Positions 15,668 through 45,026 of a stretch of DNA of 64,000 nt are shown piece after piece. Each line of letters opens with the position of its first letter. Positions within the stretch are counted from its first letter, which is position 1. A program made the translations under genes and the position numbers. The notes beneath the pieces are model-generated. The model saw only the letters and a list, made by a program, of their open reading frames with translations. It was not told the DNA's origin and made no database searches. The stretch is taken from contig NZ_CP009170.1 of the NCBI RefSeq assembly GCF_000763575.1, forward strand, positions 1,367,501 to 1,431,500, read 5' to 3'. This DNA is from Thermoanaerobacter kivui (lineage in GTDB: Bacteria > Bacillota > Thermoanaerobacteria > Thermoanaerobacterales > Thermoanaerobacteraceae).

Positions 15668-15797
15668 TTTTATCTTACCTTTCTCAAAAATATAAATTTC
15701 TCTAGTTATTACTCAAAATATCCCATTTTTATTTAATTAAACACTTTATATATTTCGACATGTATTTTAAAAATTCCTTCTTAAGCCTTTTTTAACT

Positions 15798-18700: not shown

Positions 18701-18890
18701 CATTTCTTCCTATGTCCAATCTATTCCTTATAATTTCCTCAGATATACGTCCTATATGTCGGGTTTTCCCACGATAAATTACATCCCCCAGCTCCCGATC
18801 TTGTCCTCTAAAGAGGGCTACAACTGAGTTGATAGCTTTCTTTTGGTATTCTAAATTATCATCAAAGTTAAATATAACTTTCCTTGTCAT
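15798..18890 (-). CDS. Type III restriction enzyme, Res subunit
   Basis: 1030 residues. An SF2 helicase core with METGTGKTYVYLR (Walker A, about residues 92-104), IIDEPQRL (DEAD-like, about 213-220), SHSALREGWDNPNVFQ (about 525-540) and EIGRGLRLPV (motif VI, about 556-565). Near the C-terminus the type III endonuclease domain is intact: TPDWAII...FIVESKF (about 950-974), a PD-ExK site. Res forms a complex with Mod, hydrolyses ATP to communicate between two unmethylated sites, and cuts about 25 bases from one. ATG 18890 follows AAGGAG, 12 bases after mod. All motifs are present, so the enzyme looks functional. Confidence 0.93.
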   Translation of the reverse strand: MTRKVIFNFDDNLEYQKKAINSVVALFRGQDRELGDVIYRGKTRHIGRISEEIIRNRLDIGRNVILENLREIQTQNMLFPSTDLQPIYNFSVEMETGTGKTYVYLRTILELYKNYNFLKFIIVVPTVAIRKGVEKNIEILKEHLKTLYDLDISNYAFVYDSNNLNKLMDFVEARDLRIVIMNIQAFNKDSNKIRREDERGRVLWDLIKYTKPIVIIDEPQRLEGNGKKKSASLKAIEELDPLFILRYSATHKKLYHQVYKLDSYQAYKQDLVKKIEVKTVYGNISKDYPYVRYIEFTRDLKAKIEIFYREPGGQVKLRTFNVQKGVSLYELSGELSQYKDMIVLEDPHKINGLKIGYKEGILILKEGENNYNLDELDLIRILIRLTIQTHLTKQLKILEKGYKIKVLSLFFIDRVKNFRDSEAPDGRGIYARIFDEEYEKVIKDPRYNELFKKYPDLFPEYKNVQKVREGYFARDKKNNETEIEDWDWGKDELEVKAKSQEDIERGIQLILEKKDELISFDEPLAFIFSHSALREGWDNPNVFQLCTLKKGSSEIAKKQEIGRGLRLPVDIYGNRCFDSEINVLTVIANDYYDHFAEALQKDFRLEEGLDQEEVTFEVIYQTLADAGMPEEFLVADTVEAFRTELINAGIINAKTNQLTKDAAEIIYHEFTNAILQPYQEAIKEKFIENMKAKGSKRIEIKNGDEEPVENGYHSFVTEKEFQKLLAELRERINKRTIYHVNIDKEEFIKQSIEEINKHLTYKSIYRQYEVATGGIDFKKSNELQIHDPAKFTINLGKEGIEKNKSDFEIINYLMHQTFLPRKALIRIYSALENKILLQKQEILDEVIKILQNKLNEFQAKNIEYEVLEGVVFEEKNIFAVDEIEQWMLNESAKKAYKTKEEYQKALQKYIRVDSYGEYEFARSLDEDPDVLLFTKLKKGGLVIETPYGNYTPDWAIIHKVDDHKAKLYFIVESKFDKERINLTDVEKAKIECARKHFATVSSDVVFDWVNSYERFKDIVNRSIQKNNVVK

Positions 18891-18902
18891 TTAGCCCACT
18901 CC

Positions 18903-20831: not shown

Positions 20832-20844
20832 TTTATTGCCCCTC

Positions 20845-21570
20845 CTAAATAGCAATTATTTCATTTAACCTTAAAAAACTACTTTTTATTTTTGAATTAA
20901 GGCTTGCTTTTTCTGCTAATGTGATCGACTTGCTCAGATGATTTTGAAGATTTATGATTTTCTTTAAAAGAGTCCTTATTTTATTCATTTTTTCGATATC
21001 ATAGAAGATATTGGTATCTAATGCCCTTAAAGCTCCGGTCCACAAATGTTTATAGGTAATAAGATAAGCTTTAGTTATAATTTCTGTGTAAAATGTGAGC
21101 TTGTTAGCAGTGTTTAATATTTTAGTAAAAGCTAAATATCGATCAAGTAATGTTGCATTTTCATCTGGGAAAAATAAAGAACTTCTCTGAGTAAAAATTA
21201 TATCATCTATGACAATTTCCTGCGAATCAATTTTACTTAATCTTTTTAAAGCAAAACAGTACAGGTAATTGCCTTTATTATCAATAAACCGTAACACCGC
21301 AGGAGGTTTAACTGTTTTTTGTAAAATTCCGCCAATAAAATTAGAATACTTTAAGTCATTAGCTTTTATATCAAAATAAAGAATAGCTTGATAGTTATAA
21401 TCATTGTTTATTAATGACGGTATTTCTTCTCCAATTATTTGGTGAGTTAAAGTTATTCCTTTAACATCTTCTTTAAATTTTTGTTTCTCTTGTTTTGTTA
21501 GTTCCCCGGTTAAAAAGGTTTTTATATCGAAATTTTTATCAATCTTATATCTCTCAGGTACTCCAAGCAT
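20845..21570 (-). CDS. DUF4391 protein of the helicase/type III R-M operon
   Basis: 241 residues, recognised as DUF4391 from its overall sequence: the LGVPERYKIDKNFDIKTF start, a beta-rich core with AILYFDIKANDLKYSNF and KPPAVLRF, and a helical C-terminus (NLQNHLSKSITLAEKASLNSK may form a coiled coil). The function is unknown; the family is known mainly as a neighbour of SNF2-type helicases and type III R-M genes. ATG 21570 directly follows the helicase stop (TAAATG) and mod starts 14 bases downstream, so translation is tightly coupled. It could be an adaptor between helicase and Mod-Res; that is inference. Confidence 0.75.
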   Translation of the reverse strand: MLGVPERYKIDKNFDIKTFLTGELTKQEKQKFKEDVKGITLTHQIIGEEIPSLINNDYNYQAILYFDIKANDLKYSNFIGGILQKTVKPPAVLRFIDNKGNYLYCFALKRLSKIDSQEIVIDDIIFTQRSSLFFPDENATLLDRYLAFTKILNTANKLTFYTEIITKAYLITYKHLWTGALRALDTNIFYDIEKMNKIRTLLKKIINLQNHLSKSITLAEKASLNSKIKSSFLRLNEIIAI

Positions 21571-24500
21571 TTACATCACCACAAGAAAGGATACTAACTC
21601 AAAATCATCAGCACTTGTATGGGCAAATTCATTTTCGTAGCCACCAAAGTCAAAAATACTTGTTTCAGCTTTTCTTTCTTCCTCACCTTTAATACTATCA
21701 ATTGCCTTATTCAAAAGATTTGAATAAAAGCTCATATCAGTTGCATTTTTAGTTTGCTGATTAAACAAATCAATTAGTTCGGTATTTGGTTTATTTTTCC
21801 CATAAGAAAGCTTTCTAAATTGCATTAAAGTCTCTCGTGAACTACCGCTTCCAAAATATATTTCACCGTCATGGGTAACATAAATTAAGTAATAGGGGTA
21901 AAGAGAACTATTACTTTCAGGCTTAGTATTATCTTCAAGATGCCTAAAGCAAAAGATACAACCTGGTTTTTCCCCTTTAACCACAGAATAAATTCCTCTC
22001 GGTACTCTTTTTATTTCAGGATGACTACGCACATACATGGACAACTCATATAGGTAATCGTTCATATTTAGGTCTGTTATAGAAATATTATCTGATAATT
22101 CATCAATATCAACTATTTCATTTTGCAATCGTTCCAATTGCTTTTTACGAAAGTCGAAGTCATTTAAATCTGGATTTAATATATCATCTTCTCCGGTTGC
22201 AGTCAAATTTACCGCCAGCATTTTTTGTTTGACACGGTATTCTAATTGAAGATATTCATTTAGTTCTAAATTCGGGAAAAAATTTATCATAGCTATTCGT
22301 TCATTTTTGCTTCCAATCCTATCAATACGACCAAAGCGTTGAATTAAAATAACTGGATTCCATTGAATATCATAATTTACCACGCAATCAGCATCTTGAA
22401 GGTTTTGTCCTTCGGAAATACAATCAGTAGCAATAAGAATATCTATTTGTTCATTTTCGGGTAATTTTCTCCCTAATTTAGAATTGGGAGAGAAATAAGA
22501 TAGTATAGTATTAAATTCTTTAGAAATATTTAGCGTTGTTTTAGGTTCGCCTGTCCCAGTTACAAGCGCGGTATGAATTCCATGTTTTTTCATTTCTTGT
22601 GCAATAGTATCATAAAGATAATATGCGGTATCAGCAAAAGCAGTAAAAATTAATACTTTTTTATTGCCTGGATTATAAGGTATCTTAGTTATTTTTTCTT
22701 CTAAAAAGTTTAATAAAGTTTTTAATTTTTCATCTCTCTGTTCTTGCAGAACAATATCAACACTTTTCAATAATTCTTCTATTTTCCCTTTATCGTGATA
22801 TAAGTCAGCCAAATATATTCCTTTCATTAAATGATTAACATTTATTTCATACTTATAATCCAATAATAATTCTTCATCGTCATCTGATTCTTCAAATTCT
22901 ACTTCTAAATCTTCACTACTTTTTTCAAGCAATTCTATATATCTATCAATTCTCTGAAGAAGACGTTGTAAAGTCTCCCTAAAAGCATAAACAGAGCTTT
23001 CTAATCTTTTAAATAAATTGAATCGGTGTAGTACGGAAACAAAATATTCTCTTTCTTCATGATTAAATAGCACTCTATCACCACGAACTGTTTGGAATTT
23101 TTCTACATAATATTGCTTGTATTCAGGTTTAATGTATTTCATAGGTTGATAAACTGCAAGTGTTAACATATCAAGCTTTTCATCTGTATCATAAAATTTT
23201 AGTAATTCTCCTTTGCTATCAATTTCTGGTTTATAAGTTTTTGGTAGAAGTTTTTCAGGAAAACTACCTATTTCATCATTGCCATAATACATAGTGATAT
23301 GCTTACGACTTCTCGAAATTGTAACCATTTCAAGAAGTTTAAAAAATTCTGATGGAAGATTATCCAATAAATCCTTTTTATTTCTATTCGGCTCTTTAAT
23401 CCAATCATTTATTACTTTTTGCGCTTTTTTTAATACCCCTTCAATGCTTGAAATACCATCTTCCTTAAAAGCTTCGTCATTATCTATAGTAATTGTGCTC
23501 AACTGATTTTTTAAGTCATTTAGAGAATTGTTTACAGGTGTAGCTGTCAGCATTAAAACTTTTGTTCTAACCCCTTTTTTAATAATTTCATTTATCAATC
23601 TTCCATAACGTGAAAGTCTTTCTGGATTATTATTGCGATTTCTAAAGTTATGGGACTCATCGATAACAAGCAAATCATAATTTCCCCAATTTATTCTGGA
23701 TAAATCAAGGCCGCTACGGGATCTCCCAAAACGACGACTTAAATCACTATGACAAAGAATATCAAATGCAAACCGATCTCTGGCAAAACGGTTATCTATG
23801 TAAGAATTTCTGAATGAATCCCAGTTATCATACAACTTCGCCGGTGTTAAAACTAAAACTCTATGTTGTCGTAACTCATAATATTTTATTATAGCTAATG
23901 CTTCAAAAGTTTTTCCAAGCCCTACGCTATCAGCAATAATGCAGCCATTATATTTTTCAATTTTGCGTATAGCAGAAACCACTGCATCTTTTTGAAATCG
24001 AAAAAGACTTTTCCAAATCTCAGTATCTTTAAAACCAATATGATCGCTTTCAAATCGCTCTATATCGGAATCTAATTGGTCTCCAAAAAGTTCATAAAGG
24101 GTAAAAAAATAAAGAAATTCCGGATCGTATTCTTTATAAATGAAATTAAGATTTTCCAAAAGTTGTTCCTTAAAATCTTCTGTATACCCCTTATTATTCC
24201 AAATAAATTCAAACCTTCTTTTAAGCTCTTTGACCTGTATCGAATCAGTAATTTCTATATTAAAATTCATTGGAACTATACCATTTTTCCTGGTTTTGCG
24301 GATAATTTCCAAAGAAGAATCCCCAAAAACTCCATAGTTTTCATCTATTAATATGAAATTGCTTTTTAAAAGCTCTTTCTTTTTTATCCTTTTTACATTC
24401 ACGTGTTTTTCAATAAAATTATACATACTACGAGCTTTGCTTAGATGCCCCAATTTATTTTTTTCAACTATTTCATAGGAGTTAAAAAATATATTATCAG

Positions 24501-24732
24501 CAATTCTACCAATTTCAAATTCCCGAGAAATTTCTTTGCCAGTAGGAATATAAGTAGAATCTCTCAAAACAAGATTTATTTCTTTGACTTTTTCCATGTC
24601 GAATTGCAATTCACTAAAAACAGAAAGTGTTAATTTATCATTAACAATGTTTATTGTACTATTCTTTTTATTTTTAAGTATAGTTTTTATCCGTTGTATT
24701 AAAACATCATTGGAATTTATTACTTCAGCCAT
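21571..24732 (-). CDS. SNF2/SF2 helicase with N-terminal PLD-like domain
   Basis: 1053 residues. About 1-200 resembles the degenerate phospholipase-D-like domain often found in front of this helicase type (FGDSSLE near 130), but without a clear HKD motif. The motor has Walker A ADSVGLGKTFEA (about 264-275), DESHNFRNR (about 355-363), MLTATPVNNSLNDL (about 390-403), ATDCISEGQNLQDAD (about 765-779) and QRFGRIDRIGSKNE (about 792-805). This is the SNF2-like branch that translocates on double-stranded DNA. ATG 24732 is chosen (GGTGAGG upstream); a GTG five codons earlier is possible. It leads the helicase-DUF4391-mod-res operon, immediately downstream of mrr fragments. Confidence 0.85.
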   Translation of the reverse strand: MAEVINSNDVLIQRIKTILKNKKNSTINIVNDKLTLSVFSELQFDMEKVKEINLVLRDSTYIPTGKEISREFEIGRIADNIFFNSYEIVEKNKLGHLSKARSMYNFIEKHVNVKRIKKKELLKSNFILIDENYGVFGDSSLEIIRKTRKNGIVPMNFNIEITDSIQVKELKRRFEFIWNNKGYTEDFKEQLLENLNFIYKEYDPEFLYFFTLYELFGDQLDSDIERFESDHIGFKDTEIWKSLFRFQKDAVVSAIRKIEKYNGCIIADSVGLGKTFEALAIIKYYELRQHRVLVLTPAKLYDNWDSFRNSYIDNRFARDRFAFDILCHSDLSRRFGRSRSGLDLSRINWGNYDLLVIDESHNFRNRNNNPERLSRYGRLINEIIKKGVRTKVLMLTATPVNNSLNDLKNQLSTITIDNDEAFKEDGISSIEGVLKKAQKVINDWIKEPNRNKKDLLDNLPSEFFKLLEMVTISRSRKHITMYYGNDEIGSFPEKLLPKTYKPEIDSKGELLKFYDTDEKLDMLTLAVYQPMKYIKPEYKQYYVEKFQTVRGDRVLFNHEEREYFVSVLHRFNLFKRLESSVYAFRETLQRLLQRIDRYIELLEKSSEDLEVEFEESDDDEELLLDYKYEINVNHLMKGIYLADLYHDKGKIEELLKSVDIVLQEQRDEKLKTLLNFLEEKITKIPYNPGNKKVLIFTAFADTAYYLYDTIAQEMKKHGIHTALVTGTGEPKTTLNISKEFNTILSYFSPNSKLGRKLPENEQIDILIATDCISEGQNLQDADCVVNYDIQWNPVILIQRFGRIDRIGSKNERIAMINFFPNLELNEYLQLEYRVKQKMLAVNLTATGEDDILNPDLNDFDFRKKQLERLQNEIVDIDELSDNISITDLNMNDYLYELSMYVRSHPEIKRVPRGIYSVVKGEKPGCIFCFRHLEDNTKPESNSSLYPYYLIYVTHDGEIYFGSGSSRETLMQFRKLSYGKNKPNTELIDLFNQQTKNATDMSFYSNLLNKAIDSIKGEEERKAETSIFDFGGYENEFAHTSADDFELVSFLVVM

Positions 24733-24736
24733 TCTC

Positions 24737-25133
24737 CTATCCCTCACCTTTTAGTAACCTATCATATATAATAACATACTGCATAATAATATTACATAAA
24801 CCTCTATAAATCAAAAAATGTATTTTAGCGCGCCTTTCTACTTCTTTTAGTTTTTGTAGCAATTCGTCTATTAGAGAACCTTTTATCTCATCATAATCGT
24901 TACTAATTCTTTCAAATGGGGTCATATTGTCATTTTTTTAAATATGTAGCCGCCCATCCAATTCTATTATAAAAAATTTTAACACCACTTTCACGTCTTG
25001 AATTTACTTCTTCTTCTGTCAAGTTAAATACATTTTTAAGTTTTTCTTCTAACTCTTTATATTTGTGTATTTCACCATCAAAAAGAATTTTAAGTAAGGG
25101 TAACATAATCTCTTCATATGTAGGTATAGCCAT
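24737..25133 (-). pseudogene. Remnant of mrr restriction endonuclease
   Basis: Two pieces of one gene. 25133-24930 encodes the Mrr N-terminal winged-helix domain (begins MAIPTYEEIMLP, ends NRIGWAATYLKK) and stops at TGA inside a seven-A tract. 24925-24737 then reads TPFERISNDYDEIKGSLIDE, which corresponds to the linker just before the Mrr nuclease domain. The intervening part of the N-domain is missing, and the catalytic PD-(D/E)xK domain is absent after it. So an internal deletion and a 3' truncation have destroyed the gene. ATG 25133 has a good ribosome binding site (GGGAG), so the N-domain might still be made. The break abuts the helicase start, suggesting that the helicase operon replaced the rest of mrr. 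Confidence 0.75.
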
Positions 25134-25268: not shown

Positions 25269-25696
25269 TTAATCTATCTTTGTAAATTTGCCCTTAATAA
25301 ACCGATATTTACCCAAATCAATTCCATTAAAGTTTAAAATTTTACTTCCTACATTTATAAAATAGGCTGCTTCTTGAACTCTTGGTATATTCTGTGTAAA
25401 ATCAAATTCTGAAAGAAGTTTGAGTTCCCCCTTCAAATTTTATTTCATTAGAAAATTTGAAAAATTGTCTTAATGGAAAATTAGGTTTTATACTTGCTGT
25501 ACCATTTCCAGTAATGTTCCATTCACTAAGTTTTTCTTCACTCATTTTTCAATTTTTGTGAATTCTAATTCACCAAAGCCATATTTTGTATCTCCAGCAA
25601 TATAAACTTCAGAAAAAACATTTAATAAAAAATCATTATAATCTTTGTACCAAGTATTTAACCGTTGGTTTGAAAAAATAACAAATGCGAGTGTTT
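25269..25696 (-). pseudogene. Relic of a cmr3-like cas RAMP gene
   Basis: Read with two frame corrections, this region encodes the C-terminal half of a protein related to the intact cas gene at 27551-28432. YIAGDTKYGFGELEF matches its YIGGDSKYGFGELEL, FKFSNEIKFEG matches FEFSHEVRFEG, SEFDFTQNIPRVQEAAYFINVGSKI matches the same block near its end, and it finishes KFTKID against KLIKNR. The breaks are an extra G in a G-run near 25433 and a one-base change in an A-run near 25548. The 5' half is gone, replaced at about 25697 by a transposase scrap. It shows that a second related RAMP gene once stood here. Not functional. Confidence 0.8.
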
Positions 25697-26908: not shown

Positions 26909-27424
26909 TTAAAATATCCCTTTTTGTAGAAATTTCCTTAAATATACCCTGATCTTTTCATCATCCCAATTGGTTGTTTCTTTTAATCCTTTCTCAATAA
27001 CTTTTAGATATTTTTCTGATGGACTTTGTATTTCATTGGTCCAACGTCCAGTTATTGTTTTGATTTTAACTCCATCTTTTTCACCAAGTTCCAAAATATG
27101 GTCATACCAGCTTTCGCCTTCTTGTTCCTGAATATCATAAAATTGCTCTACAGTTATTTTCCATAATCTAATAACAGAATAAAATTCGGGGTTTTTCTCT
27201 TTCTCACAAGATAAGAAGGCTACCCCTTTATTTTCCCATCTTGAAGAACTTTTTGCAAAATACAGCCGGTAAGGAACATACATCCATCCCATATCTACCG
27301 GTTCTGTTTTGTCCCTGCATCCTTCATACTTTTTGCCTTCATATACTCCGCCTTTTATATAGACTAGAAATCTTTCTCTAAGTAAATTTGAACCATATGC
27401 ACCATAATAAATAACTTCGCTCAT
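26909..27424 (-). CDS. Gamma-glutamylcyclotransferase-like (GGCT-fold) protein
   Basis: 171 residues starting with IYYGAYGSNL (about residues 5-14), the glycine-loop YGSN motif of the GGCT/AIG2 fold, and continuing with strands FYSVIRLWKITVEQF and YDHILELG that fit the fold. The catalytic acid of true cyclotransferases is usually a Glu in the middle third; several acidic residues are possible here, so activity is not assured. It sits between the toxin-antitoxin pair and the cas operon on the same strand, 126 bases after the last cas gene; a role in defence is only a suspicion. ATG 27424 follows GGGAGG. No terminator is seen before it. Confidence 0.65.
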   Translation of the reverse strand: MSEVIYYGAYGSNLLRERFLVYIKGGVYEGKKYEGCRDKTEPVDMGWMYVPYRLYFAKSSSRWENKGVAFLSCEKEKNPEFYSVIRLWKITVEQFYDIQEQEGESWYDHILELGEKDGVKIKTITGRWTNEIQSPSEKYLKVIEKGLKETTNWDDEKIRVYLRKFLQKGIF

Positions 27425-27550: not shown

Positions 27551-28432
27551 TCATCTATTTTTTATTAATTTTCCCTTAAAAAGTTGATGATTTTTTAATA
27601 TATTTTTATCATCTATAATTATTTGACTACCTATATTCACAAAATAACCTGCATTTTCGACTTTGGGATTATTTTGGGTAAAATCAAATTCTGCAAGTAA
27701 CTTAACCTCTCCTTCAAATCTCACTTCATGTGAAAACTCAAAAAAGTGCTTTAAAATTAAACTATTATCATTGTCATCTAAAAACAAATGACCATCCTCA
27801 TCTAAATCCCATTTTTTAACTTCTTCAGGTGTGTTTCCTCCCTCGCTTTTTAGTTCATCAAGGGAAAATAATTCTAATTCACCAAAACCATATTTAGAAT
27901 CTCCACCAATATATATCTTAAGAGAAATTTTTAAAAAGTCTTTAGCTTTTTCAATTACATCATCCTCGAACCCAATTAATCCTATCCAATAAAGTTGTTT
28001 CGAACTGCTTATATCCTGTTTTGATTTTGGCAGTATAAACTCAAATTCATGTAAGCTTTCATCTTTTGTACTTCTTAATAGTGGTTCTATAGCTGTTGAT
28101 ACAATAGTATCAACAAATTCAAATTTAAATTTTTCCTCAGGATAATCTCCAAGGTAAAAATCGCCTTTTTCATATTTAGGAAATAAAGGGTCAGTATTTG
28201 AACATCTAACTTTTTCACACTCTACAGCAGGATAAAAGTTTGTAATATGTTCAAATAATTTTTTAGCTCTTTCAATTTCACTAAACCCAATTGTCCTTAA
28301 AAATTGATTAGTTAAAGCGCCCCACATTGTCCAGCCAGGAATAAAAATTTCAGTTTCATTAATTACTCCCCACTTAACAGAGCCTATATGTATTGGCTGG
28401 TTTTGCTTAAAAATTAGTTTATACCATTTCAT
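27551..28432 (-). CDS. Type III CRISPR RAMP protein, Cas5/Cmr3-like
   Basis: 293 residues. A RAMP protein (ferredoxin-like fold) with QPIHIG near the start, GVINETEIFIPGWTMWGAL (about residues 20-38), where Cmr-type proteins place their substrate-facing loop, and the glycine-rich GGDSKYGFGELELF (about 194-207) typical of the RAMP G-loop. By position as last gene of the operon and by size it is the best candidate for the Cas5 subunit that caps the crRNA 5' handle. ATG 28432 follows GGGGGAAT. A decayed paralogue is present at 25269-25696. Assignment to Cas5/Cmr3 rather than another RAMP is by gene order. Confidence 0.7.
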   Translation of the reverse strand: MKWYKLIFKQNQPIHIGSVKWGVINETEIFIPGWTMWGALTNQFLRTIGFSEIERAKKLFEHITNFYPAVECEKVRCSNTDPLFPKYEKGDFYLGDYPEEKFKFEFVDTIVSTAIEPLLRSTKDESLHEFEFILPKSKQDISSSKQLYWIGLIGFEDDVIEKAKDFLKISLKIYIGGDSKYGFGELELFSLDELKSEGGNTPEEVKKWDLDEDGHLFLDDNDNSLILKHFFEFSHEVRFEGEVKLLAEFDFTQNNPKVENAGYFVNIGSQIIIDDKNILKNHQLFKGKLIKNR

Positions 28433-28436
28433 TTTT

Positions 28437-28796
28437 TTATTCCCCCATAGCCTTTGCATGGTATCGGGCATAGATTAGAGCTTTTTCTAATGATTCTTTG
28501 AAAAATAACAATTCGTAAATATCTTTAGACAATTCCTGAAAAAACTCTTCAGCTTTATCACTATATTCAGATTGGAAAAAAGGTTTTAAAGTTTTTATTG
28601 GCTTATTAATAAATATGTTGCTGTATTTCCCATCATTTTTGCTTAAACAAAAAACATAATAAGCATACACACCGTCATTAGATAAAACTCCTAACGCTTT
28701 ATCTATGAACCTTAAAATTTCTTTATCCTTTTGAGAACTGTTTGCTATATCGAAACCCAATTTATTTAATGTATACTCAAGATTATTTTCATTCAT
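28437..28796 (-). CDS. Type III CRISPR small subunit, Cas11/Cmr5-like
   Basis: 119 residues, predicted all-helical, ending KALIYARYHAKAMGE, which has the look of Cmr5-type small subunits. Contents of interest: GVYAYYVFCLSKN and a helical C-terminal half. Small subunits line the belly of the type III complex and touch the target RNA. It overlaps the Cmr4-like gene by four bases (ATGA) and ends four bases before the Cmr3-like start. The sequence alone is weak evidence; size and position between cmr4- and cmr3-like genes decide the call. Confidence 0.65.
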   Translation of the reverse strand: MNENNLEYTLNKLGFDIANSSQKDKEILRFIDKALGVLSNDGVYAYYVFCLSKNDGKYSNIFINKPIKTLKPFFQSEYSDKAEEFFQELSKDIYELLFFKESLEKALIYARYHAKAMGE

Positions 28797-30001
28797 TTTT
28801 GTCCACCCCCATTAGGGTTATTATTGCTTTCTTCTGATTTACCTTGAGTATCTTTATCACAATTATTTGTATTTTTATCATTAATCTCTAATACAATTCT
28901 CCCAAACCCTCTTGTCGTCATACCGCCAATACCTAATGTTTCAAAGAAGTGTTTGGAATCACATAAAGCATTTTTTAGCATGCTATAATTAGGCAGATCC
29001 CCGACTTTGTCCGATAACCCATCAAAAACTGATCTATCAAAGATTCTTAAATCTCCATAAAATATTGTCCCTCTTGGTATTGCCTCAGAAGTAAAAAGCG
29101 CACCTTCTTTTGCAGCTCCCGTTATTGGATCTATTGAAACAGATGTTCTCACTTCGAGATTAGAGTTAACAATTTGAGAGAATAAGCTTTCAGGGACAAT
29201 AACAATTTTATCTTCAGTAAGCTCAAAATTACCAATCTTTATTTCTTTTAGGTTGATTGAAAGATTTCCTACTTTATAAGGTAAATAAATCCATCCAAGA
29301 TTTATATGCCCATCTACTTTTCCATCCTCTATTTTTTCTAAAATTATACAAACCAAATCTTTGTTCTCATCTTGCTCATTTTCTGGCTCTTCACCGTATA
29401 AATTTGCATTTTTTAACATCTCTTTTGTTGTTATCCACTTGGTACCAAAGCGTGTAAAAACAGGGAAAAACAAAATATTTAAATCACTAAAAAAAATCAT
29501 ACCTTGCCAGCTTAAATCTTTCTTTGAAAATCCAAATCCTTTACAAACAATACAATGTCCGCAGTGTCCAGTCTTACCTTCTTTATTAGTTGCATCCGGT
29601 GAATTCGATAGTTCTTCTTGCGGAGTATTATCCTGTCCTGCACAGGTAATTTTCGCTACAACATTGCCATTAAAATATTCCCACCTATTATTGGGCCAAT
29701 TACTGGAATTTTGTTTAATCCACTCTTTTATTTTATCATTTAAAGTATTCCCATTAAGATTTTTGATATCACTAAATTTAGGCTGTTTATCCTTTATCTT
29801 AGATAAAAGTTCCAACGTCGCATAATACCTCCAAGTCCCTGCCAAACTTGAACCGGGAATTTTAGGAAGTTTTGTTATTGGGTCTCTTACAATGGTATTG
29901 TCAACCCTTCCTGTAGTGTATCCGCCTGTCCCAATATAAATTGGATCTGTTGCCATTCCATAAATTTTAAATTCCTTAACAAAATCATTACTTTTATCCA
30001 T
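28793..30001 (-). CDS. Type III CRISPR RAMP protein, Cas7/Cmr4-like
   Basis: 402 residues. Near the start it has the Cmr4-type pattern DPIYIGTGGYTTGRVD followed by IVRDPITKLPKIPGSSLAG (about residues 18-56), the Cas7 backbone signature that binds crRNA. A C-x2-C-x2-C cluster (HCGHCIVCKGFGFS, about 144-157) may hold zinc. G-rich GIGGMTTRGFGRIVL (about 356-370) is the RAMP G-loop. Cas7/Cmr4 subunits normally carry the Asp that cuts target RNA every six bases; a candidate is Asp34 in the GRVDNTIVRD region. GGAGG precedes ATG 30001, three bases after the cas10 stop. Confidence 0.8.
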   Translation of the reverse strand: MDKSNDFVKEFKIYGMATDPIYIGTGGYTTGRVDNTIVRDPITKLPKIPGSSLAGTWRYYATLELLSKIKDKQPKFSDIKNLNGNTLNDKIKEWIKQNSSNWPNNRWEYFNGNVVAKITCAGQDNTPQEELSNSPDATNKEGKTGHCGHCIVCKGFGFSKKDLSWQGMIFFSDLNILFFPVFTRFGTKWITTKEMLKNANLYGEEPENEQDENKDLVCIILEKIEDGKVDGHINLGWIYLPYKVGNLSINLKEIKIGNFELTEDKIVIVPESLFSQIVNSNLEVRTSVSIDPITGAAKEGALFTSEAIPRGTIFYGDLRIFDRSVFDGLSDKVGDLPNYSMLKNALCDSKHFFETLGIGGMTTRGFGRIVLEINDKNTNNCDKDTQGKSEESNNNPNGGGQK

Positions 30002-30004
30002 TTT

Positions 30005-33000
30005 TTATACCTCCTTTAAAGCTGTATGCCAAAATTCAAACATATCCAAGAAAAGCTGTACATTATCTAAGGTCATCTTTTCTTTTAGTACCGCATGGAG
30101 CTTATCATTTTCTTTAGATTTATCTATGTCAAATAGATCTTTTATTCCATCTGCAAGCCCTATATCTTTTTTTAGGTCAAGAATATTTATAAAGCTTGAA
30201 GCAAGAAAAGCTTTTACCCCTTCAACATCACTATTTATTTTTGATTCAGCACTGGCTATGGCTTCCCAATTATCATAGATTACAGAGATTAATTTTTGAA
30301 GTTTTGTACTCCTCGCAACTCTATTTTTATTTTCTTTGCCAAACAGATCTTTAAATTTTTTAAATTTTCCCCAATTATCTAAGTCATAAGGTCGTGAGCT
30401 TTTAATTTTTATTTTTCTTTTCCATTTATTATCTCCGTCATAATAAATATCATTTCTTCTTGTATTTGTATCTAAAAACTCAAAATCAAAAGTATTTGGT
30501 ATTATATTGATTTTTTCATCTTCACCAATTTCGTCAATGTTTAATATCCAGTGTATACTTCCATCTTCGGGCTTAATATAAAATTTATATCCCTTGGAAT
30601 GATTACCCCAATATAAAGAATAGTATTTATGAGTATTATTTAGCGATTCCTCAATCTTTTGGCATTTTAATATCTCTCTGACTTTAGATGGTTTTTCTTC
30701 TATTGATAGTTTTTCTATTCCCTCAACATCCCTCCTAATTTTTCTTAAAGCTTTTATGCCTATATATAACGGCTTTTTATAATCCTGCACCACTACTCCT
30801 ATATGAAGTGGCAGTTTTCCATAAACAAATTTAAAACTTTCATTATATTTTTTCATAACATTATCAATCAAATTTGGCACATACTCAGCAGGTATAATAA
30901 ACTGCCAACTAATTGGTGTGGGATCAATGATAGAGATGTATGGAGTATAGTATTCAAAATCAGTATTATCTTTATACTTAACAGATGCTATTACATTTCC
31001 ATTGCCTGTAGATTCTTTGAGATTAAATTCCTTACCTGCTTTTAAATCTTTTATATAAGATATTAAATAAACTTTACCCTTATCAGCCCAAAAGAGAACA
31101 TCTCCATCCTGATATTCTCCATCCGGTATATTTTCATTTGAGTTTTTAACTTTAATATTTTCCCAATAAAATCTTTTTCTTCTATTCTCAGGAATACCTG
31201 CATAAGCACATATATTTTCCTTTATATCTTCAAAAAACTCTTGAGTACTCTCCCATATTCTTCTCAGCCGCGCCGGAGAAGGATTTTTTCTAAGAAGAAA
31301 TTGAAGGATAAGAGTAGATAAAAATTCTATATCATCCTTATTTAATTGAGACCAATTTATTTTTCTCCCATCAAAGTCTATCTTTGAATTCAAACTACTC
31401 TTTTTTATCCATTCTTCCCAATGCGTACCCATTATTGAACCGAAAAATATCTGTTTTATGAAATCGTCAAAAGATTCATTATTTATTTTACAACCTATAT
31501 AAGCTTCTGCAGCCAAATATTTTGGGAAAAAAGAAAAATTTTCTAGTAATGCTACCTTAAATTCACTTTTAATTTTCTGATACTCATTTTTTATCATATC
31601 AGCAAGTTCCTCAATCGTATTTTGGTAATCTAAAGTGTCTTTGTTTAAAGGTTTGTTTAAAGGTTCTTCACACCACTTGCTCTTACGTAAGTTTTCTATT
31701 AATTTTTTAATTTTTTCTATATTTCTTTTTAATGTTTCGAAAGTCCTTTTTTTCTTACCCAATTTACTTTTTTCTCCGGGAGGCGTCAAAGGACTTTTCA
31801 ACAATACATTTAATTCTGCAATATTCCTTTCAATCTCTTTTACATCAAAATACTCACTTACATCCAAATTAGACAACAATAATAAAATAAAATTTTTTAC
31901 CCATAAAATGCTCCTTTTAAAAGTTTCATTTCTAACTATCAAACTATTTAACATATCGCCATTTAACCAATCGTGAAGCTCAAATTTCATTGTTATAAGT
32001 GCAACTTTATCATTCTTGTCTTTCAATTCATCCATCCAGATAGTTTCATCGTTTCGATTGCTCAGCCATTTATCAATTCTACCTTTTGTTTTCTTTTCAT
32101 AACAAATATTGCATATATTTTTGTCTTCATCTCTTCTATCTGATTTGAAGACCAATCTTTGACCACAAACCTGACATATACCAATTGCTCTTTCACTTTC
32201 TGATTTTTCTATGTATATATCAGTTTCTTTCTTACTCCAGTCTGCTTTTAAGAAATTTTCTCTTGCTTTTTCAAGAAGATAACTTAAATTCATCAGACCT
32301 CTTGAAGCTTTAGTAAGAAAGATTGCAGGATAGAATTCTTCTAAAGATTTTTCTTTAAAAATTTCCAATATTTTATTTTTTATTTCACCTAAATCCTTAT
32401 GTAATTCAGCAAGAATGTTACCTTGTAAATCTACTCCTAAATCCTCACCAACTAAAAAATATATTCCTGTTTCATCACGATATACTTCATTTCCAATGGG
32501 ATACTCATATTCCAAAAGCTTTTTTATTTCCTCATCTATTTTCCTTGCAGTTTCCCTATACCATTGAATCTGGGCAGGTTTATAACCTTTTTCTGCAAGC
32601 CCAAGTTTATCGTACTGTATACCAAGAATACGCCATCTGATGTTATTAGGATTATTTTTATAATCATTCAGCTTTTTATCGCTGTCTTTAAGAATAGTTA
32701 ATTCAGCCAATACTGCTTTAAACATTGTAGCAGTCATATAGGCTTGATCCCAGAGAGTAACATCATTTACTGGAAAACGTGAGTCACTTAAAAGCCTTGA
32801 ATACCAATTTTTAATCTCAGTGAAGATAAATTCTCTTATTTTTTGCCAGTCAGGATTTGTGTAATAATTGTCACGAGATAAGAAGTTGTTAAGCTTATTG
32901 TAAAAGCAAATCCTTTGATCATCGAAATCATGCAATTCTACTTTTTTCTTAAAAGAACCAAAAGCATTAGAAAGCCATAACTTACTTTTTATTTGCTCTT

Positions 33001-33370
33001 TAGGAGAACCTTTATCTATACCAGAATTTATATTTTCGCAACCCCGAATGAAAACTTTTTTTACAACTTCTAAAGAACTTTCTTTACCCTGCATTATTTC
33101 TTTCAGTTTTAAAGATTCAAAACTTAACTTCACTTGTACACCATTTATAAAATCTTTAAGTTGTTTATTAACTCCTTCAAGTTCGGGATCCAGATATTTA
33201 TCAACATATTCTTTGTAACTTGCCCATTTATAGTCCGAATTTGGAAAATATGGACTCCAAAATGAAAATCCAACATGTGTTTTACCTAAATTAAACAATA
33301 ATGCCCCTATCTCAGCCTTTAAAATCTCATCCTTATATTCCTTTAAATTTTCTAAATTCAACTCTCCCAT
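30005..33370 (-). CDS. Divergent Cas10 large subunit (Csx11-like), no HD or GGDD visible
   Basis: 1121 residues, the large subunit of the complex. The N-terminus reads EIGALLFNLGKTH (about residues 20-32), the place where Cas10 HD nucleases have LHDxGK; the His-Asp pair is Phe-Asn here. A four-cysteine zinc finger follows (CQVCGQR...CNICYEKK, about 394-421). In the second palm region, where cyclase-active Cas10 has GGDD, the sequence reads SIIDPTPISWQFIIPAEYV (about 812-830). The downstream YGKLPLHIGVVVQDYKKPLY is a Cas10 palm hallmark. The size, lack of GGDD and gene order fit the Csx11/subtype III-C group. ATG 33370 follows AAAGGGTGG. Probably a structural or target-sensing subunit. Confidence 0.8.
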   Translation of the reverse strand: MGELNLENLKEYKDEILKAEIGALLFNLGKTHVGFSFWSPYFPNSDYKWASYKEYVDKYLDPELEGVNKQLKDFINGVQVKLSFESLKLKEIMQGKESSLEVVKKVFIRGCENINSGIDKGSPKEQIKSKLWLSNAFGSFKKKVELHDFDDQRICFYNKLNNFLSRDNYYTNPDWQKIREFIFTEIKNWYSRLLSDSRFPVNDVTLWDQAYMTATMFKAVLAELTILKDSDKKLNDYKNNPNNIRWRILGIQYDKLGLAEKGYKPAQIQWYRETARKIDEEIKKLLEYEYPIGNEVYRDETGIYFLVGEDLGVDLQGNILAELHKDLGEIKNKILEIFKEKSLEEFYPAIFLTKASRGLMNLSYLLEKARENFLKADWSKKETDIYIEKSESERAIGICQVCGQRLVFKSDRRDEDKNICNICYEKKTKGRIDKWLSNRNDETIWMDELKDKNDKVALITMKFELHDWLNGDMLNSLIVRNETFKRSILWVKNFILLLLSNLDVSEYFDVKEIERNIAELNVLLKSPLTPPGEKSKLGKKKRTFETLKRNIEKIKKLIENLRKSKWCEEPLNKPLNKDTLDYQNTIEELADMIKNEYQKIKSEFKVALLENFSFFPKYLAAEAYIGCKINNESFDDFIKQIFFGSIMGTHWEEWIKKSSLNSKIDFDGRKINWSQLNKDDIEFLSTLILQFLLRKNPSPARLRRIWESTQEFFEDIKENICAYAGIPENRRKRFYWENIKVKNSNENIPDGEYQDGDVLFWADKGKVYLISYIKDLKAGKEFNLKESTGNGNVIASVKYKDNTDFEYYTPYISIIDPTPISWQFIIPAEYVPNLIDNVMKKYNESFKFVYGKLPLHIGVVVQDYKKPLYIGIKALRKIRRDVEGIEKLSIEEKPSKVREILKCQKIEESLNNTHKYYSLYWGNHSKGYKFYIKPEDGSIHWILNIDEIGEDEKINIIPNTFDFEFLDTNTRRNDIYYDGDNKWKRKIKIKSSRPYDLDNWGKFKKFKDLFGKENKNRVARSTKLQKLISVIYDNWEAIASAESKINSDVEGVKAFLASSFINILDLKKDIGLADGIKDLFDIDKSKENDKLHAVLKEKMTLDNVQLFLDMFEFWHTALKEV

Positions 33371-34668
33371 TTTAACCACCCTTTTTCTTTCAGCCCATCA
33401 TTTATATTTAAATTTTTGTTGGTATAATAATACTTATCTTCACATAATTCAAATGTTCCCCAGCCAAGCTTCGTTTTTGCTCCTATTCCATTCTGTGATA
33501 CTTTTTCAATTGCCGATAAAAGATTTTCTAAATCTTTTTCTGCTTCCTTTTTTAATTCTTTATTTTCTTTTAATATCCCATCAAAAGGAATATATATAAT
33601 CTGCAAAATCCCTTCTGTACCCTCTGGAACCACTTCATAATAAATTGGCTGAGTCCCTGCTCTTTTTCTTCTGTCATGGGGATTTATTACTTCTAAAGAA
33701 AGTCTGTCAAAATATGTAGGATAAAATATGGCTCTTCCTTTATGTGTTTGAAATTCTATTGGTAGGTTTTTATTATCTTTTTGAAGTTTCTCAGAAATTT
33801 TCTCCTGAAGAATACCTTGAAGTTTCTCGTATGAATTTGTGTCTTTAATTTCACCTATAAAATTTTTGTCAACTTTCAACCCAAGTTCAAACAATATAAA
33901 TTCTAAAAGCTTTTCTTTAAATTTTACTAAATCTTTACTATTTTCCTTCAGATAATCCTCTACCACTTTTATACTTTCTGAGCCTGCACCAAATATTCGT
34001 AAGTAACTATCAACAATTTTTCCCCTTTTTTTAAGGTTAGCCTCTTCATTTATTAAATCTTTAAAGGCAGCAGCTAAAGAACCTTTCCAACTACTTCCCC
34101 GTATCATAGGCACTTTAAAGACTTTTTCCTTTAATACTGGATTTGAAATTATATAAAATTCGTCATCATCCTTTGAGAAGTATGGCTGTTTTAGTTTGAA
34201 ACTTACCTGAATTATAAATGAGTACGGCGGAAGTTTTTTTACATAATCATTAGCTATATTCTGAGCTAAAATCCCTGATATAGAATTTACATCTTCCAAT
34301 TGCTGGTCCTCTTTAAAAACAAAATCTTTATTTTCTTTCATGATTTCATCTTTTAACCAAGTTAACGGAAAATCCTTAGTTGTTTGATTGGAACGATTTC
34401 TTTTTAAATATTTAAACAACTTCCCATTTAAATTATTGTTTTTAAGTTCAGATTTATAATCTTCATTGGATAAAATAAATGGAAAGTCCTTTTTTAAACT
34501 TTCTACTTTATCTCTATTAATGCTTGTCGGGTTGTTGTCTCGCATTAAATAATCTTCTATTTTTTCTTCACTTTTTGGTTTAAAATAAAGCTTGCAGTAT
34601 GATATATACTGACTCAAGTTTTTCACTTCACCAATATTTACTTCTATTAAAGCGTCATACTTTGGCAT
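33358..34668 (-). CDS. Type III CRISPR RAMP protein, Cas7/Cmr6-like
   Basis: 436 residues. The RAMP core begins at about residue 150 with SFIIQVSFKLKQPYFSKDDDE, then the substrate loop FKVPMIRGSSWKGSLAAAF (about 188-206), which corresponds to the RGSSLRG-type loop of Cmr6/Csm3 proteins, and ends with NGIGAKTKLGWGTFEL (about 402-417), the G-rich loop. The first 150 residues are an extension rich in Lys and Asn with no recognised domain. ATG 34668 is chosen (AAGGAG upstream) and overlaps cmr1 by 14 bases. Cmr6-type subunits cap the crRNA 3' side of the complex. Confidence 0.7.
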   Translation of the reverse strand: MPKYDALIEVNIGEVKNLSQYISYCKLYFKPKSEEKIEDYLMRDNNPTSINRDKVESLKKDFPFILSNEDYKSELKNNNLNGKLFKYLKRNRSNQTTKDFPLTWLKDEIMKENKDFVFKEDQQLEDVNSISGILAQNIANDYVKKLPPYSFIIQVSFKLKQPYFSKDDDEFYIISNPVLKEKVFKVPMIRGSSWKGSLAAAFKDLINEEANLKKRGKIVDSYLRIFGAGSESIKVVEDYLKENSKDLVKFKEKLLEFILFELGLKVDKNFIGEIKDTNSYEKLQGILQEKISEKLQKDNKNLPIEFQTHKGRAIFYPTYFDRLSLEVINPHDRRKRAGTQPIYYEVVPEGTEGILQIIYIPFDGILKENKELKKEAEKDLENLLSAIEKVSQNGIGAKTKLGWGTFELCEDKYYYTNKNLNINDGLKEKGWLKWES

Positions 34669-35746
34669 TTTGTTCATCTCCTTCATATAGTTCTAATAAA
34701 TCAGCAATAGATAAAAATCCGCCACAGTAATTATCACCTTCTTTTATTATGTATGGTAAAATTTTAGACCCCTGAGGTAAATCTTCGCCTTTGATATTAC
34801 CTGTTTTCCCAAATTTAAAATGTCTTTCTTTTTTATCGTTTACAGTACTTCTTTTTTGTGCTTTTTGTTTTATTAATTCTTTAATAACTTTTCTTAAAGC
34901 TTCATCTGAATTTTGATTATTAGAATTTTGATTGACTGGAATCTTATTTAAAATTTTTATTTTTTTATTATTCTTTTGAACATGAATTAAATCATCAAAA
35001 TTACTAACTGATATCAAATATTTCTCTGAGTCAAATTTTTCACCATTCTTATTCTTAAATAAACTAAAATCAAACCACTTTCTGTCATTATTATTTTGCT
35101 CTTCTGTTATAACCCTCAACCTGCCATAACCAATATTCCATTTACCACCCCAGTAACCGTACTTATCCATGAAATTTAAAAGTGGATAAAATATACTGTT
35201 TAATATTTCTTCCTCAGCTAAAAATTTGACTTTTAACTTCCCATAGAAATATGGTTGTGATAAGTAAAAAACAGACCAATCTTGATTGCTACTTCTTGGA
35301 CAGTTATTATTCTCTTTAATTTCTCCATTTTGCTTAGAAATACAAATCCTTTCTGGTAAATTTAATTTGTTTCCAAAACAATAATCGTCCAACGTTTCTA
35401 TCTCTTTTATCTCAATTAATCCTTTCCATCCAGTTGTACCAAATATAATAGAAGGTATTGGAATTTTCATTTCTTTTAAAGTCTCAATTTGCGATTTAAT
35501 ATCTGTACCTTTTCCCATAAGCTTCGCTTTAAACTCTTTTTCTTCTACTTCTTTTTCAAATCGTCCTTTCCCCATGTCAAAATCATTTTTTGGAACAATT
35601 CCACTAAAATAACAAATCACTTCAAACCAAAACCTTAAACTCCCCATTAAAGAAGAAGGTCTACTTTTTGTGTTTTTCTGCCATGCATCACTGGTCCAGA
35701 GTGGAGTTATCGTCTCTAAATGAACAGTAACTTCCTTCTTGCTCAT
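34655..35746 (-). CDS. Type III CRISPR RAMP protein Cmr1-like
   Basis: 363 residues, first gene of the cas operon. TITPLWTSDAWQKNTKSRPS followed by SLMGSLRFWFEVICYF (about residues 12-47) is the classic Cmr1 opening. GGKWNIGYGRLRV (about 197-209) is the RAMP G-loop. The middle (about 270-310) is low-complexity and Asn/Lys-rich (NQNSNNQNSDEA). Cmr1 sits at the crRNA 3' end in Cmr complexes. ATG 35746 follows AAAGGAG. A sigma-A-like promoter is visible 28-56 bases upstream. The six genes overlap or nearly touch and will be one transcript. Confidence 0.8.
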   Translation of the reverse strand: MSKKEVTVHLETITPLWTSDAWQKNTKSRPSSLMGSLRFWFEVICYFSGIVPKNDFDMGKGRFEKEVEEKEFKAKLMGKGTDIKSQIETLKEMKIPIPSIIFGTTGWKGLIEIKEIETLDDYCFGNKLNLPERICISKQNGEIKENNNCPRSSNQDWSVFYLSQPYFYGKLKVKFLAEEEILNSIFYPLLNFMDKYGYWGGKWNIGYGRLRVITEEQNNNDRKWFDFSLFKNKNGEKFDSEKYLISVSNFDDLIHVQKNNKKIKILNKIPVNQNSNNQNSDEALRKVIKELIKQKAQKRSTVNDKKERHFKFGKTGNIKGEDLPQGSKILPYIIKEGDNYCGGFLSIADLLELYEGDEQNAKV

Positions 35747-40403: not shown

Positions 40404-43400
40404 ACTGTTTTGTTAATTAGGTAGGCTAAAAACCTAAATGTTGCAAAAGACGCATACCACTGTGTAAGATGGTTTCAATTCCTTACAGGTAGGCTAAAAA
40501 CAACCTCCTCTATTTCAATTTCTAACCTCGGAATATTGTTTCAATTCCTTATAGGTAGGCTAAAAACTAATGAATTTAAAGCTAAGCCATCTCAGTTTTT
40601 TTGGTTTCAATTCCTTATAGGTAGGCTAAAAACTATAGACGTGCTTTTAGCAAGGTCAGGTGTTAAAAGGTTTCAATTCCTTATAGGTAGGCTAAAAACC
40701 AATTTGGCAGAAAAGGAGGATACAGATGGACATGAGGTTTCAATTCCTTATAGGTAGGCTAAAAACCCTGCTGCGATTTTAGCAGCAATAGACATTCTTT
40801 GTTGTTTCAATTCCTTATAGGTAGGCTAAAAACTCTTGACACTCCAGAACCAGTGCCTGCAGGAGTGTAGTTTCAATTCCTTATAGGTAGGCTAAAAACC
40901 CTGCTTTGACGGTATGTAAACGGCAATCCTCCTGGTGTTTCAATTCCTTATAGGTAGGCTAAAAACATGCTCCCGACTTCAGCCATTGCCTTCACCATCC
41001 CAAGTTTCAATTCCTTATAGGTAGGCTAAAAACTCTGCAGAGCTAATCATCAGCCCAGAGCCGTTGTGCGGTTTCAATTCCTTATAGGTAGGCTAAAAAC
41101 CTTTATCTTTCAAAAGCAGTGCATCGTTCAAATTGTGTTTCAATTCCTTATAGGTAGGCTAAAAACGGTTTAACACCGCTGTTTAAAGTCAACAAAAGCG
41201 ATAGTTTCAATTCCTTATAGGTAGGCTAAAAACAACCAGAGCCAACCAGTTTACGGCTTGTATCTACCGGTTTCAATTCCTTATAGGTAGGCTAAAAACT
41301 GCTTTCATTTCATGTGTTGCACCTATGATGGCATAGTTTCAATTCCTTATAGGTAGGCTAAAAACGCACATGTGGGGCGCGTAAGAAATACCCCACCCGG
41401 CAGTTTCAATTCCTTATAGGTAGGCTAAAAACTTCTGCATATCCGCCCCATTCTAAATAGCTGCCACTACGTTTCAATTCCTTATAGGTAGGCTAAAAAC
41501 CACTTCAAACGACAAGTCACGCATTTTCATCACCCGTTTCAATTCCTTATAGGTAGGCTAAAAACCCCGTCCAGGAGGGAGTTTATTACATCGTCTCCCT
41601 CCGTTTCAATTCCTTATAGGTAGGCTAAAAACCTGTATATGACTTCCATGTATGCCCTTTGGGTAGTAGTTTCAATTCCTTATAGGTAGGCTAAAAACCA
41701 CAATGATTAAAGAACCACTCTGATGGGCGCCCTGGTTTCAATTCCTTATAGGTAGGCTAAAAACACCAAGAAGCGCGCAGGCGCTTCTTGGTAGATTTCC
41801 GTTTCAATTCCTTATAGGTAGGCTAAAAACGGTGCTTCGTTTGTCAAGGGACACCTTTCCGGTAGCGTTTCAATTCCTTATAGGTAGGCTAAAAACAGTC
41901 CTCCCACTCCGGAGGAACATCCGGAGGTAGGCGTTTCAATTCCTTATAGGTAGGCTAAAAACTAGCAGGTCCGCCAGTATGGGGAAAATTGTCAAAGTCG
42001 TTTCAATTCCTTATAGGTAGGCTAAAAACTCGCTTTTTCAGCCTTTCTTAATGCTATGTCGCTAGTTTCAATTCCTTATAGGTAGGCTAAAAACTTTTTC
42101 TTGCAATGCGTTGCACAAGCTGTCATGACAGTTTCAATTCCTTATAGGTAGGCTAAAAACAAGGAGGTAGAGCAGTCATGAAGTACCGCGTTTTTAGTTT
42201 CAATTCCTTATAGGTAGGCTAAAAACGGATAAAACCGCAGGACCTTTTTGCCGTGCTGCAGAGGTTTCAATTCCTTATAGGTAGGCTAAAAACAAGCGTG
42301 GTGCGGGGTGCCCGGAGGGTGCGAACGTGGGTTTCAATTCCTTATAGGTAGGCTAAAAACAATTTCAAGGTTATATAAGTCAAACAGATTATTTGGTTTC
42401 AATTCCTTATAGGTAGGCTAAAAACCCTTCATGGCGCAGGATAGCAAAATGCATTCTCAGAAAGTTTCAATTCCTTATAGGTAGGCTAAAAACTTGTTTT
42501 GCTCCTGAGATTTTCGCTCCATCGTTCTTGTTTCAATTCCTTATAGGTAGGCTAAAAACGAAGCTAAGCTGGGAAACATCGGCTGGGGCATTGCTGGTTT
42601 CAATTCCTTATAGGTAGGCTAAAAACACACCGCACGTGGGAGCCCGGCACTGGGTACAGGGGTTGTTTCAATTCCTTATAGGTAGGCTAAAAACCAACGT
42701 AATCGCTGTGGTAGGTGAGGCGGCTTGGATGGCGTTTCAATTCCTTATAGGTAGGCTAAAAACTTCCTTTACTCAGCTTTTACTTTATCTCTTCCCATTG
42801 TTTCAATTCCTTATAGGTAGGCTAAAAACAGAAAGCCCGCCAAGCTTTGTTGAAAATTCTTGTACGTTTCAATTCCTTATAGGTAGGCTAAAAACGAGGA
42901 AGAGGAAGCAGAAGCGGAAGTATTTGCAGACGTTTCAATTCCTTATAGGTAGGCTAAAAACTCGTATGCTCTGCTCATAAAAGGATTAGCCCGCATTTGT
43001 TTCAATTCCTTATAGGTAGGCTAAAAACTGACCATGCTAAGGGTACGGTGACGGTAAAGATGGAGTTTCAATTCCTTATAGGTAGGCTAAAAACTACATG
43101 GTGCTACAGGAAGAAAACGGAGACTGGGTGCGTTTCAATTCCTTATAGGTAGGCTAAAAACTCTATCGCCGCGTTACGCAGAGTTTCTTCCGTTACAGTT
43201 TCAATTCCTTATAGGTAGGCTAAAAACTATGGCTGCTTAGCTCCTATAAGGTTACATTTATAAAAAGTTTCAATTCCTTATAGGTAGGCTAAAAACCCAA
43301 GGACATTTGGAATATGCAGGGAATATTCTTCAGTTTCAATTCCTTATAGGTAGGCTAAAAACTTGTTATTAAGTTTATAGGCGTTAAAGGAATTCCACGT

Positions 43401-45026
43401 TTCAATTCCTTATAGGTAGGCTAAAAACTGGGGCGACTTGAATACCCTTGGGCTAACCTGGGAAGTTTCAATTCCTTATAGGTAGGCTAAAAACGGTTGG
43501 CAAGACCCGTAAAGCGTTTTGCCAAAGAATGGGTTTCAATTCCTTATAGGTAGGCTAAAAACAGGCTTACAGAAGCAGGAAGAGGCATCTTGTTTCTGGA
43601 GTTTCAATTCCTTATAGGTAGGCTAAAAACCGTCCTGTATCCAGAAAGGAGGACGAGCCAGATACGTTTCAATTCCTTATAGGTAGGCTAAAAACGAGCT
43701 TTTGCATCAAGAACAATAATAGGTTCATCATTGTTTCAATTCCTTATAGGTAGGCTAAAAACCAGTATCCATCGCTATCCTTATTTTCACTTCTTCCCCA
43801 GTTTCAATTCCTTATAGGTAGGCTAAAAACTTGGTTCGCTACCTGTTCTAAAGAAAACGTACAAAGGTTTCAATTCCTTATAGGTAGGCTAAAAACTGGT
43901 TATGGAACAGTTACTAAGGGTATAGCAGATATATGTTTCAATTCCTTATAGGTAGGCTAAAAACTAGCCCGGATAACAAAGCCCTCTGCTCCTAATTCCT
44001 GTTTCAATTCCTTATAGGTAGGCTAAAAACAGCCGTCGGCCATAATTTCTTTTGCCTCTTCTACAGGTTTCAATTCCTTATAGGTAGGCTAAAAACTTAT
44101 TTAAGTTCTCCTTCTATTTCTGAGTCTCTTTCGTTTCAATTCCTTATAGGTAGGCTAAAAACCAGGCTTATTAAGTGAAAGATGAAACATAATATCATGT
44201 TTCAATTCCTTATAGGTAGGCTAAAAACATTTCTGCGCCTGTCTATGCACCTGACTTGCCTGGGTTTCAATTCCTTATAGGTAGGCTAAAAACTATAATG
44301 TAAAATAGGAAAATATAAAATCTCCTCCCGTTTCAATTCCTTATAGGTAGGCTAAAAACGTAGATAAGTTGCCACAGATTCACTTTGGCGCTGTGGGTTT
44401 CAATTCCTTATAGGTAGGCTAAAAACTTGATAGAAGCAGCGGTTTTTGAGATGAATATTGTATTGTTTCAATTCCTTATAGGTAGGCTAAAAACTTCTTT
44501 TATTCATGGGAGGTTCATTCTTCTATGAAAGGTTTCAATTCCTTATAGGTAGGCTAAAAACACGTTTCTAAAGCTAGGAATACTAGGATCAGAATAGGTT
44601 TCAATTCCTTATAGGTAGGCTAAAAACGGTGGAAGGAGTACAGTAATCCTAACCGTTCTATTCGTTTCAATTCCTTATAGGTAGGCTAAAAACGCCCTGA
44701 TTTGCCTATCCAGCATTCTATCATATTGTGGTTTCAATTCCTTATAGGTAGGCTAAAAACGCAGTTAGGTGCTACCACTGCTTTTTCGGCCTCTCAGGGT
44801 TTCAATTCCTTATAGGTAGGCTAAAAACCTGATATCCTGCGAAAGTAGCAGGTCTACCTGCTTGGTTTCAATTCCTTATAGGTAGGCTAAAAACTAAAGG
44901 TTCAGTTTTTATAAAACAGGCGAAAAATTAGTTTCAATTCCTTATAGGTAGGCTAAAAACGTAAGACAAATTGCCATGGCTGTTGCTGGTATATCAGTTT
45001 CAATTCCTTATAGGTAGGCTAAAAAC
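40404..45026 (-). CRISPR. CRISPR array, 70 repeats and 69 spacers
   Basis: Repeat of 30 bases; on the plus strand it begins GTTTCAATTCCTTATA and ends GGTAGGCTAAAAAC. I count 70 units from 40404 to 45026, spacers mostly 35-39 bases. On the minus strand the repeat ends ATTGAAAC, the handle typical of type I-B/III crRNAs, so transcription should run right to left from the AT-rich leader at 45027. The leftmost copy (40404-40433) has lost its first half, as expected for the old trailer end, and the next (40472-40501) has one change (TTACAG). The other 68 look identical. No cas1, cas2 or cas6 is in the window, so processing and spacer uptake must use genes elsewhere. Confidence 0.97.

Follow-up and report, generated by a model that had tools for sequence, protein, structure and literature searches.

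A complete CRISPR subtype III-C operon in Thermoanaerobacter kivui whose Csx11 lacks both canonical Cas10 motifs

The window (the whole 64,000-nucleotide stretch of Thermoanaerobacter kivui DNA that was analysed, from a genome of 2.4 Mb in a single contig) carries a complete CRISPR subtype III-C operon, in which a Csx11-family Cas10 is encoded together with five Cmr-type partners. This Csx11 has lost both the His-Asp pair of the HD nuclease and the GGDD motif of the cyclase, a double loss that is ordinary for III-C and not peculiar to the present genome; the Cas7 backbone subunit retains its predicted RNA-cleaving aspartate. We consider it likely that the III-C complex is a crRNA-guided RNA endonuclease, with Csx11 serving as a scaffold without canonical Cas10 catalysis.

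The III-C operon and its subtype

Six intact ORFs, mutually overlapping or almost abutting, occupy positions 27551-35746 on the minus strand. All six genes of the original prediction were confirmed, in the order in which it had placed them:

34655..35746, minus strand: cmr1, a RAMP gene (363 aa; PADLOC Cmr1, E 5.7e-129; Pfam RAMPs)
33358..34686, minus strand: cmr6-like RAMP gene (442 aa; PADLOC Cmr6, E 1.7e-98)
30005..33379, minus strand: cas10c / csx11 (1124 aa from GTG; TIGR02682, 615.5 bits; PADLOC Cas10c, E 3e-139)
28793..30001, minus strand: cmr4-like gene for the Cas7 backbone subunit (402 aa; TIGR02580, 103.2 bits, cut-off 87)
28437..28796, minus strand: cmr5-like gene for the small subunit (119 aa; PADLOC Cmr5, E 2.1e-34)
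27551..28471, minus strand: cmr3-like gene for the Cas5 subunit (306 aa; PADLOC Cmr3, E 1.8e-81)

The cut-off of the Csx11 model TIGR02682 is 248.95 bits, well below the score of the window Cas10, and the Cmr2 family model TIGR02577 gave no match to this protein, which places the operon outside III-B; the genome's own Cmr2 is encoded at a different locus. The gene order was strictly kept in the relatives' III-C loci that were compared. The window operon shares with III-C systems (Csx11, MTH326-like) the signature Csx11, the gene set, the dead cyclase and the lack of a known effector nearby; it departs from III-C generally in that the HD pair and a second HD-domain His position are both lost and in having a large array close by. 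Its Cmr1, 3, 4, 5 and 6-type subunits and its Cas10 fold are those of III-B (Cmr), whereas its Cas10, besides failing to match TIGR02577, has neither HD nor GGDD. Another system with an inactivated palm has, as here, lost its cyclic-oligoadenylate effector genes (PMC12669027), but the two are not closely related and their gene sets differ.

Loss of the HD and GGDD sites

Residues of Csx11 are numbered from the GTG start (1124 aa); an ATG three codons downstream gives a protein of 1121 aa. The positions at which the catalytic motifs would be expected are as follows:

33290..33295, minus strand: codons of F29-N30, which take the place of the HD nuclease pair (alignment of 73 Csx11)
33035..33037, minus strand: codon of E115, aligned with the downstream HD-domain His position (Glu in 23/23 clade members)
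30908..30919, minus strand: codons of T821-P822-I823-S824, which take the place of GGDD (hhalign to canonical Cas10; hairpin in the structural model)

Phe-Asn had been predicted to replace His-Asp at about residues 26-27, and this was borne out, as residues 26-27 counted from the ATG are F29-N30 counted from the GTG; they lie within the sequence LLFNLGKTH. No HD dipeptide occurs in residues 1-130 of the window Csx11, where the sole His is H35. The E115 column holds His in 6/9 HD-bearing relatives and in 41/41 of the other rows from outside the clade defined below. With F29-N30 and E115, the window Csx11 lacks the N-terminal His-Asp pair by which an HD-active type III Cas10 is recognised.

Profile-profile alignment with 23 canonical GGDD Cas10s laid GGDD over T821-P822-I823-S824 (probability 97%, E 3.5e-11), and no GG[DE][DE] string occurs anywhere in the protein; Palm2, where cyclic-oligoadenylate signalling calls for GGDD, thus has T-P-I-S instead. 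The sequence IDPTPISW was correctly foreseen at this place, but its coordinates, given as 813-820, are actually 815-822 in the 1121-aa count and 818-825 in the 1124-aa count. Comparison of a structure prediction with known Cas10, one of the checks proposed at the outset, matched the Cas10 fold: in the AlphaFold model (mean pLDDT 87.9, pTM 0.88) the motif forms a beta hairpin (E815-818/E824-830) followed by a helix (831-852) and a strand (858-866), which is the palm topology, and the best PDB matches were all Csm1 or Cmr2. The TM-score of the top match was modest (0.37 by query length, 0.51 by target length), and we therefore regard the fold as that of Cas10 but Csx11 as diverged.

Two sources supplied Csx11 loci, 399 genomes of the phylum and a scan of 84,980 species genomes; the 73 Csx11 proteins having both the HD and the palm regions were aligned at both motifs, a second check that had been proposed. 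None of the aligned Csx11s that extend over the palm had GGDD at the palm position; stray GG[DE][DE] strings in nine sequences all lay away from it. The dipeptides at the HD place (n=73) were HM 36, FN 15, HD 9, AL 4, HN 3, IL 2, FL 2, HL 1 and HQ 1, counts that are biased because the scan patterns were tuned to the window's clade. An H-D dipeptide was missing from 64/73 Csx11s and, in a less biased within-phylum draw, from 16/25, the pair being kept in the other 9/25. Hoikkala et al. (2024) likewise describe III-C as without cyclase sites, as having a recognisable HD in only half, and as without known effectors (PMC11229360). Survey and counts agree, and therefore the double loss is of an already known kind; a prediction that III-C to III-F have neither DNase nor messenger synthesis has also been restated (PMC7192623). 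The view of III-C as a subtype with dead cyclase domains was hence upheld, both by the alignment and by the survey, whereas the added loss of the HD pair, which the original prediction held to be notable, proved commonplace.

When a Csx11 tree was built with the N-terminal columns removed, the window protein fell into a 23-member clade (SH-aLRT 100) in which the HD pair occurs in 0/23 members, its place being taken mostly by a conserved LLFNLGKTH. A shifted HD or DD pair, or close homologues with intact motifs, were sought, and none was found within this clade. The members come from Thermoanaerobacterales and other Firmicutes, Hydrogenothermaceae (Aquificota), Sulfurovum, Cloacimonadota, WOR-3 and Neomarinimicrobiota, and include the cultured thermophiles Thermoanaerobacterium butyriciformans, Thermosyntropha lipolytica and Caldicoprobacter oshimai. 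This names a clade of III-C systems that are complete and naturally lack both canonical Cas10 sites, a clean natural experiment on whether cutting target RNA is by itself enough to protect cells, with no need for artificial HD or GGDD mutants. A scan of viral contigs with patterns from the broad Csx11 alignment gave no confirmed relative, and plasmid sequences held only distant Csx11 fragments, of under 31% identity.

Retained residues and the proposed mode of action

Three further sites, one in Cmr4 and two in Csx11, bear upon what the complex may still do:

29900..29902, minus strand: codon of D34 in Cmr4, the predicted RNA-cleaving backbone Asp (Asp in 89/89 III-C loci, and likewise in the Csm3 of this genome)
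32102..32176, minus strand: four-Cys zinc-binding stretch C402/C405/C423/C426 of Csx11 (conserved in 75-77 of 77 rows)
32474..32482, minus strand: codons of Y300-R301-D302 of Csx11, in a hairpin assigned to Palm1 (D302 in 75/77 Csx11)

D34 sits in the sequence GRVDN of the Cmr4 loop and is aligned to an Asp in the Csm3 of the same genome, so that the window has the loop Asp that marks an RNA-cleaving Cas7 backbone. We take D34 to be the cleaving residue, following established work on Csm3 and Cmr4; the 89 loci in which it was scored include a few duplicate records of one locus, and its conservation could in part reflect structure. In a comparison of the window with a relative of the same genus, dN/dS was 0.265 for cas10 and 0.18-0.34 for the other five subunits; Csx11 is therefore still constrained by purifying selection, and this constraint, taken with the conserved zinc-binding cysteines, gives it the look of a maintained scaffold.

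The same values bear on the idea that the operon is decaying and by now does little. Its presence in the genus is patchy, and several copies are broken: the genome's second III-C locus (L037 5824-12893) has a cas10 split by a frameshift, a shortened cmr6, no cmr1 and an adjoining transposase gene, and broken III-C copies are also found in other members of the genus and in Thermoanaerobacter thermocopriae. Alongside the window operon lies a further remnant:

25339..25628, minus strand: remnant of another cmr3-like gene (stretches of 73% and 79% identity to cmr3 at 27621-27937; no intact ORF)

However, six intact ORFs, the low dN/dS throughout, the large adjoining array and the conservation of the dead motif as LLFNLGKTH across phyla all speak against decay of the window operon, which we regard as improbable.

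In the mechanism that we favor, Cmr1, Cmr6, Cmr4, Cmr5, Cmr3 and Csx11 would assemble on crRNAs bearing the AUUGAAAC repeat tag; these crRNAs would probably derive from the adjacent array and be trimmed by a Cas6 whose gene lies at another genomic locus. Complementary transcripts would be cut by Cmr4 through Asp34, and Csx11, its fold preserved, would serve as the scaffold at the complex's 5' end, neither cutting DNA via the canonical HD site nor making cyclic oligoadenylate via the canonical GGDD site. Reliance on target-RNA cleavage only, one of two possibilities first raised, is the reading best supported by the Cmr4 Asp in 89/89 loci and the missing Cas10 sites. In other type III systems, cells are often only weakly protected by RNA cleavage alone, and this, like the frequent decay of III-C copies, counts against the RNA-only reading. 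Type III-E gRAMP (Cas7-11) cuts RNA under the direction of a guide with no catalysis by Cas10 and in this resembles the mode proposed here, but it is a single fused protein without Cas10, whereas the window has genes for a predicted six-subunit complex.

It is also conceivable, if quite unlikely, that Csx11 has a non-canonical enzymatic or ligand-binding site, for which the Palm1-attributed hairpin with Tyr300-x-Asp302, together with Lys221 and Glu290, would be the likeliest candidate. These residues are nearly invariant (D302 in 75/77, Y300 in 76/77, E290 and K221 each in 77/77) and the GGDD position is variable; such conservation could, however, be purely structural, and III-C is without known effectors (PMC11229360). 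The more specific proposal, that in Csx11 proteins the site has left the GGDD hairpin of Palm2 for the Tyr300-x-Asp302 hairpin of Palm1 and has brought III-C a new nucleotide-dependent activity, we hold to be a long shot.

Neighboring genes and the CRISPR array

Among the window proteins scanned, which were part of the window ORFs, none matched a CARF or HEPN family; within this scope the claim that no such effector is near was supported, and no CARF/SAVED effector was found among the same proteins. At other loci the genome encodes a III-B Cas10 that has both HD and GGDD, and a III-A Cas10 that has GGDD; an ORF beside the III-B Cas10 appears CARF-like by eye. The genes next to the operon and the array lie as follows:

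26909-27424 of the window: AIG2-like gene next to cmr3
40404..45026, minus strand: CRISPR array of 69 repeats GTTTTTAGCCTACCTATAAGGAATTGAAAC and 68 spacers, the likely guide source

Target binding by the III-C complex might instead switch on a separate partner, either an unknown effector or the genome's III-B/III-A systems, with III-C contributing recognition or target-RNA clearance to a response that the systems share. GGDD Cas10s are indeed available in the genome, and the array near the III-B locus has a repeat, GTTTCAATCCCTCTTAGGTAGGCTAAAAAC, closely similar to that of the window, so that guides could be shared. On the other hand, in the III-C loci compared, no neighboring gene other than the core six was conserved. 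The AIG2-like gene, which adjoins cmr3 in the genome's other III-C locus as well (L037 5199-5807), was rejected as an accessory effector; among the loci compared it was limited to the two III-C loci of this genome, and it is also present in a relative without csx11. On this evidence, action through a partner seems unlikely to us, and the scaffold reading, with RNA cleavage by Cmr4, is retained.

The window array probably supplies the III-C guides, to judge by its position and repeat. The 3' portion of the repeat, ATTGAAAC, is a typical type III crRNA tag; from this repeat end and the AT-rich upstream side, we infer that the array is transcribed leftward. The exact repeat was not found elsewhere in the genome searched, and the two cas6 genes both lie elsewhere in the genome. 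Between the operon and the array are IS110-like and IS607/TnpB-like genes, assigned from sequence. Several loci of the clade have arrays close to the operon, and in many of these arrays TTGAAAC closes the repeat; most III-C loci have been described as lacking arrays (PMC12669027). The window array gave no match to plasmid records, and the one array match in phage records was discarded as a target, being mostly repeat sequence with no clear target.

Other defense genes were seen in the window and in relatives. A defense island at 11464-24747 of the window holds an SNF2 helicase (PADLOC C3a139), a type III restriction-modification pair and McrBC-like genes. In five relatives III-C lies within or adjoining a BREX operon (brxC, pglX, brxHI, pglZ and brxA by PADLOC), a raw co-occurrence; the two were on the same strand in 4/4 loci mapped, and the position of the III-C block varied. 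Adjacency of III-C and BREX is not mentioned in the searched passages of a 2026 BREX survey (PMC12839542).

Parageobacillus phage JGon-2020a (CP063417.1) carries, at L171 1497-1560, a solitary CRISPR repeat that is identical to the window repeat at 24/30 positions, along with a short stretch resembling a spacer, a second, incomplete repeat and a hairpin resembling a terminator. By its layout this site looks like a phage RNA anti-CRISPR.
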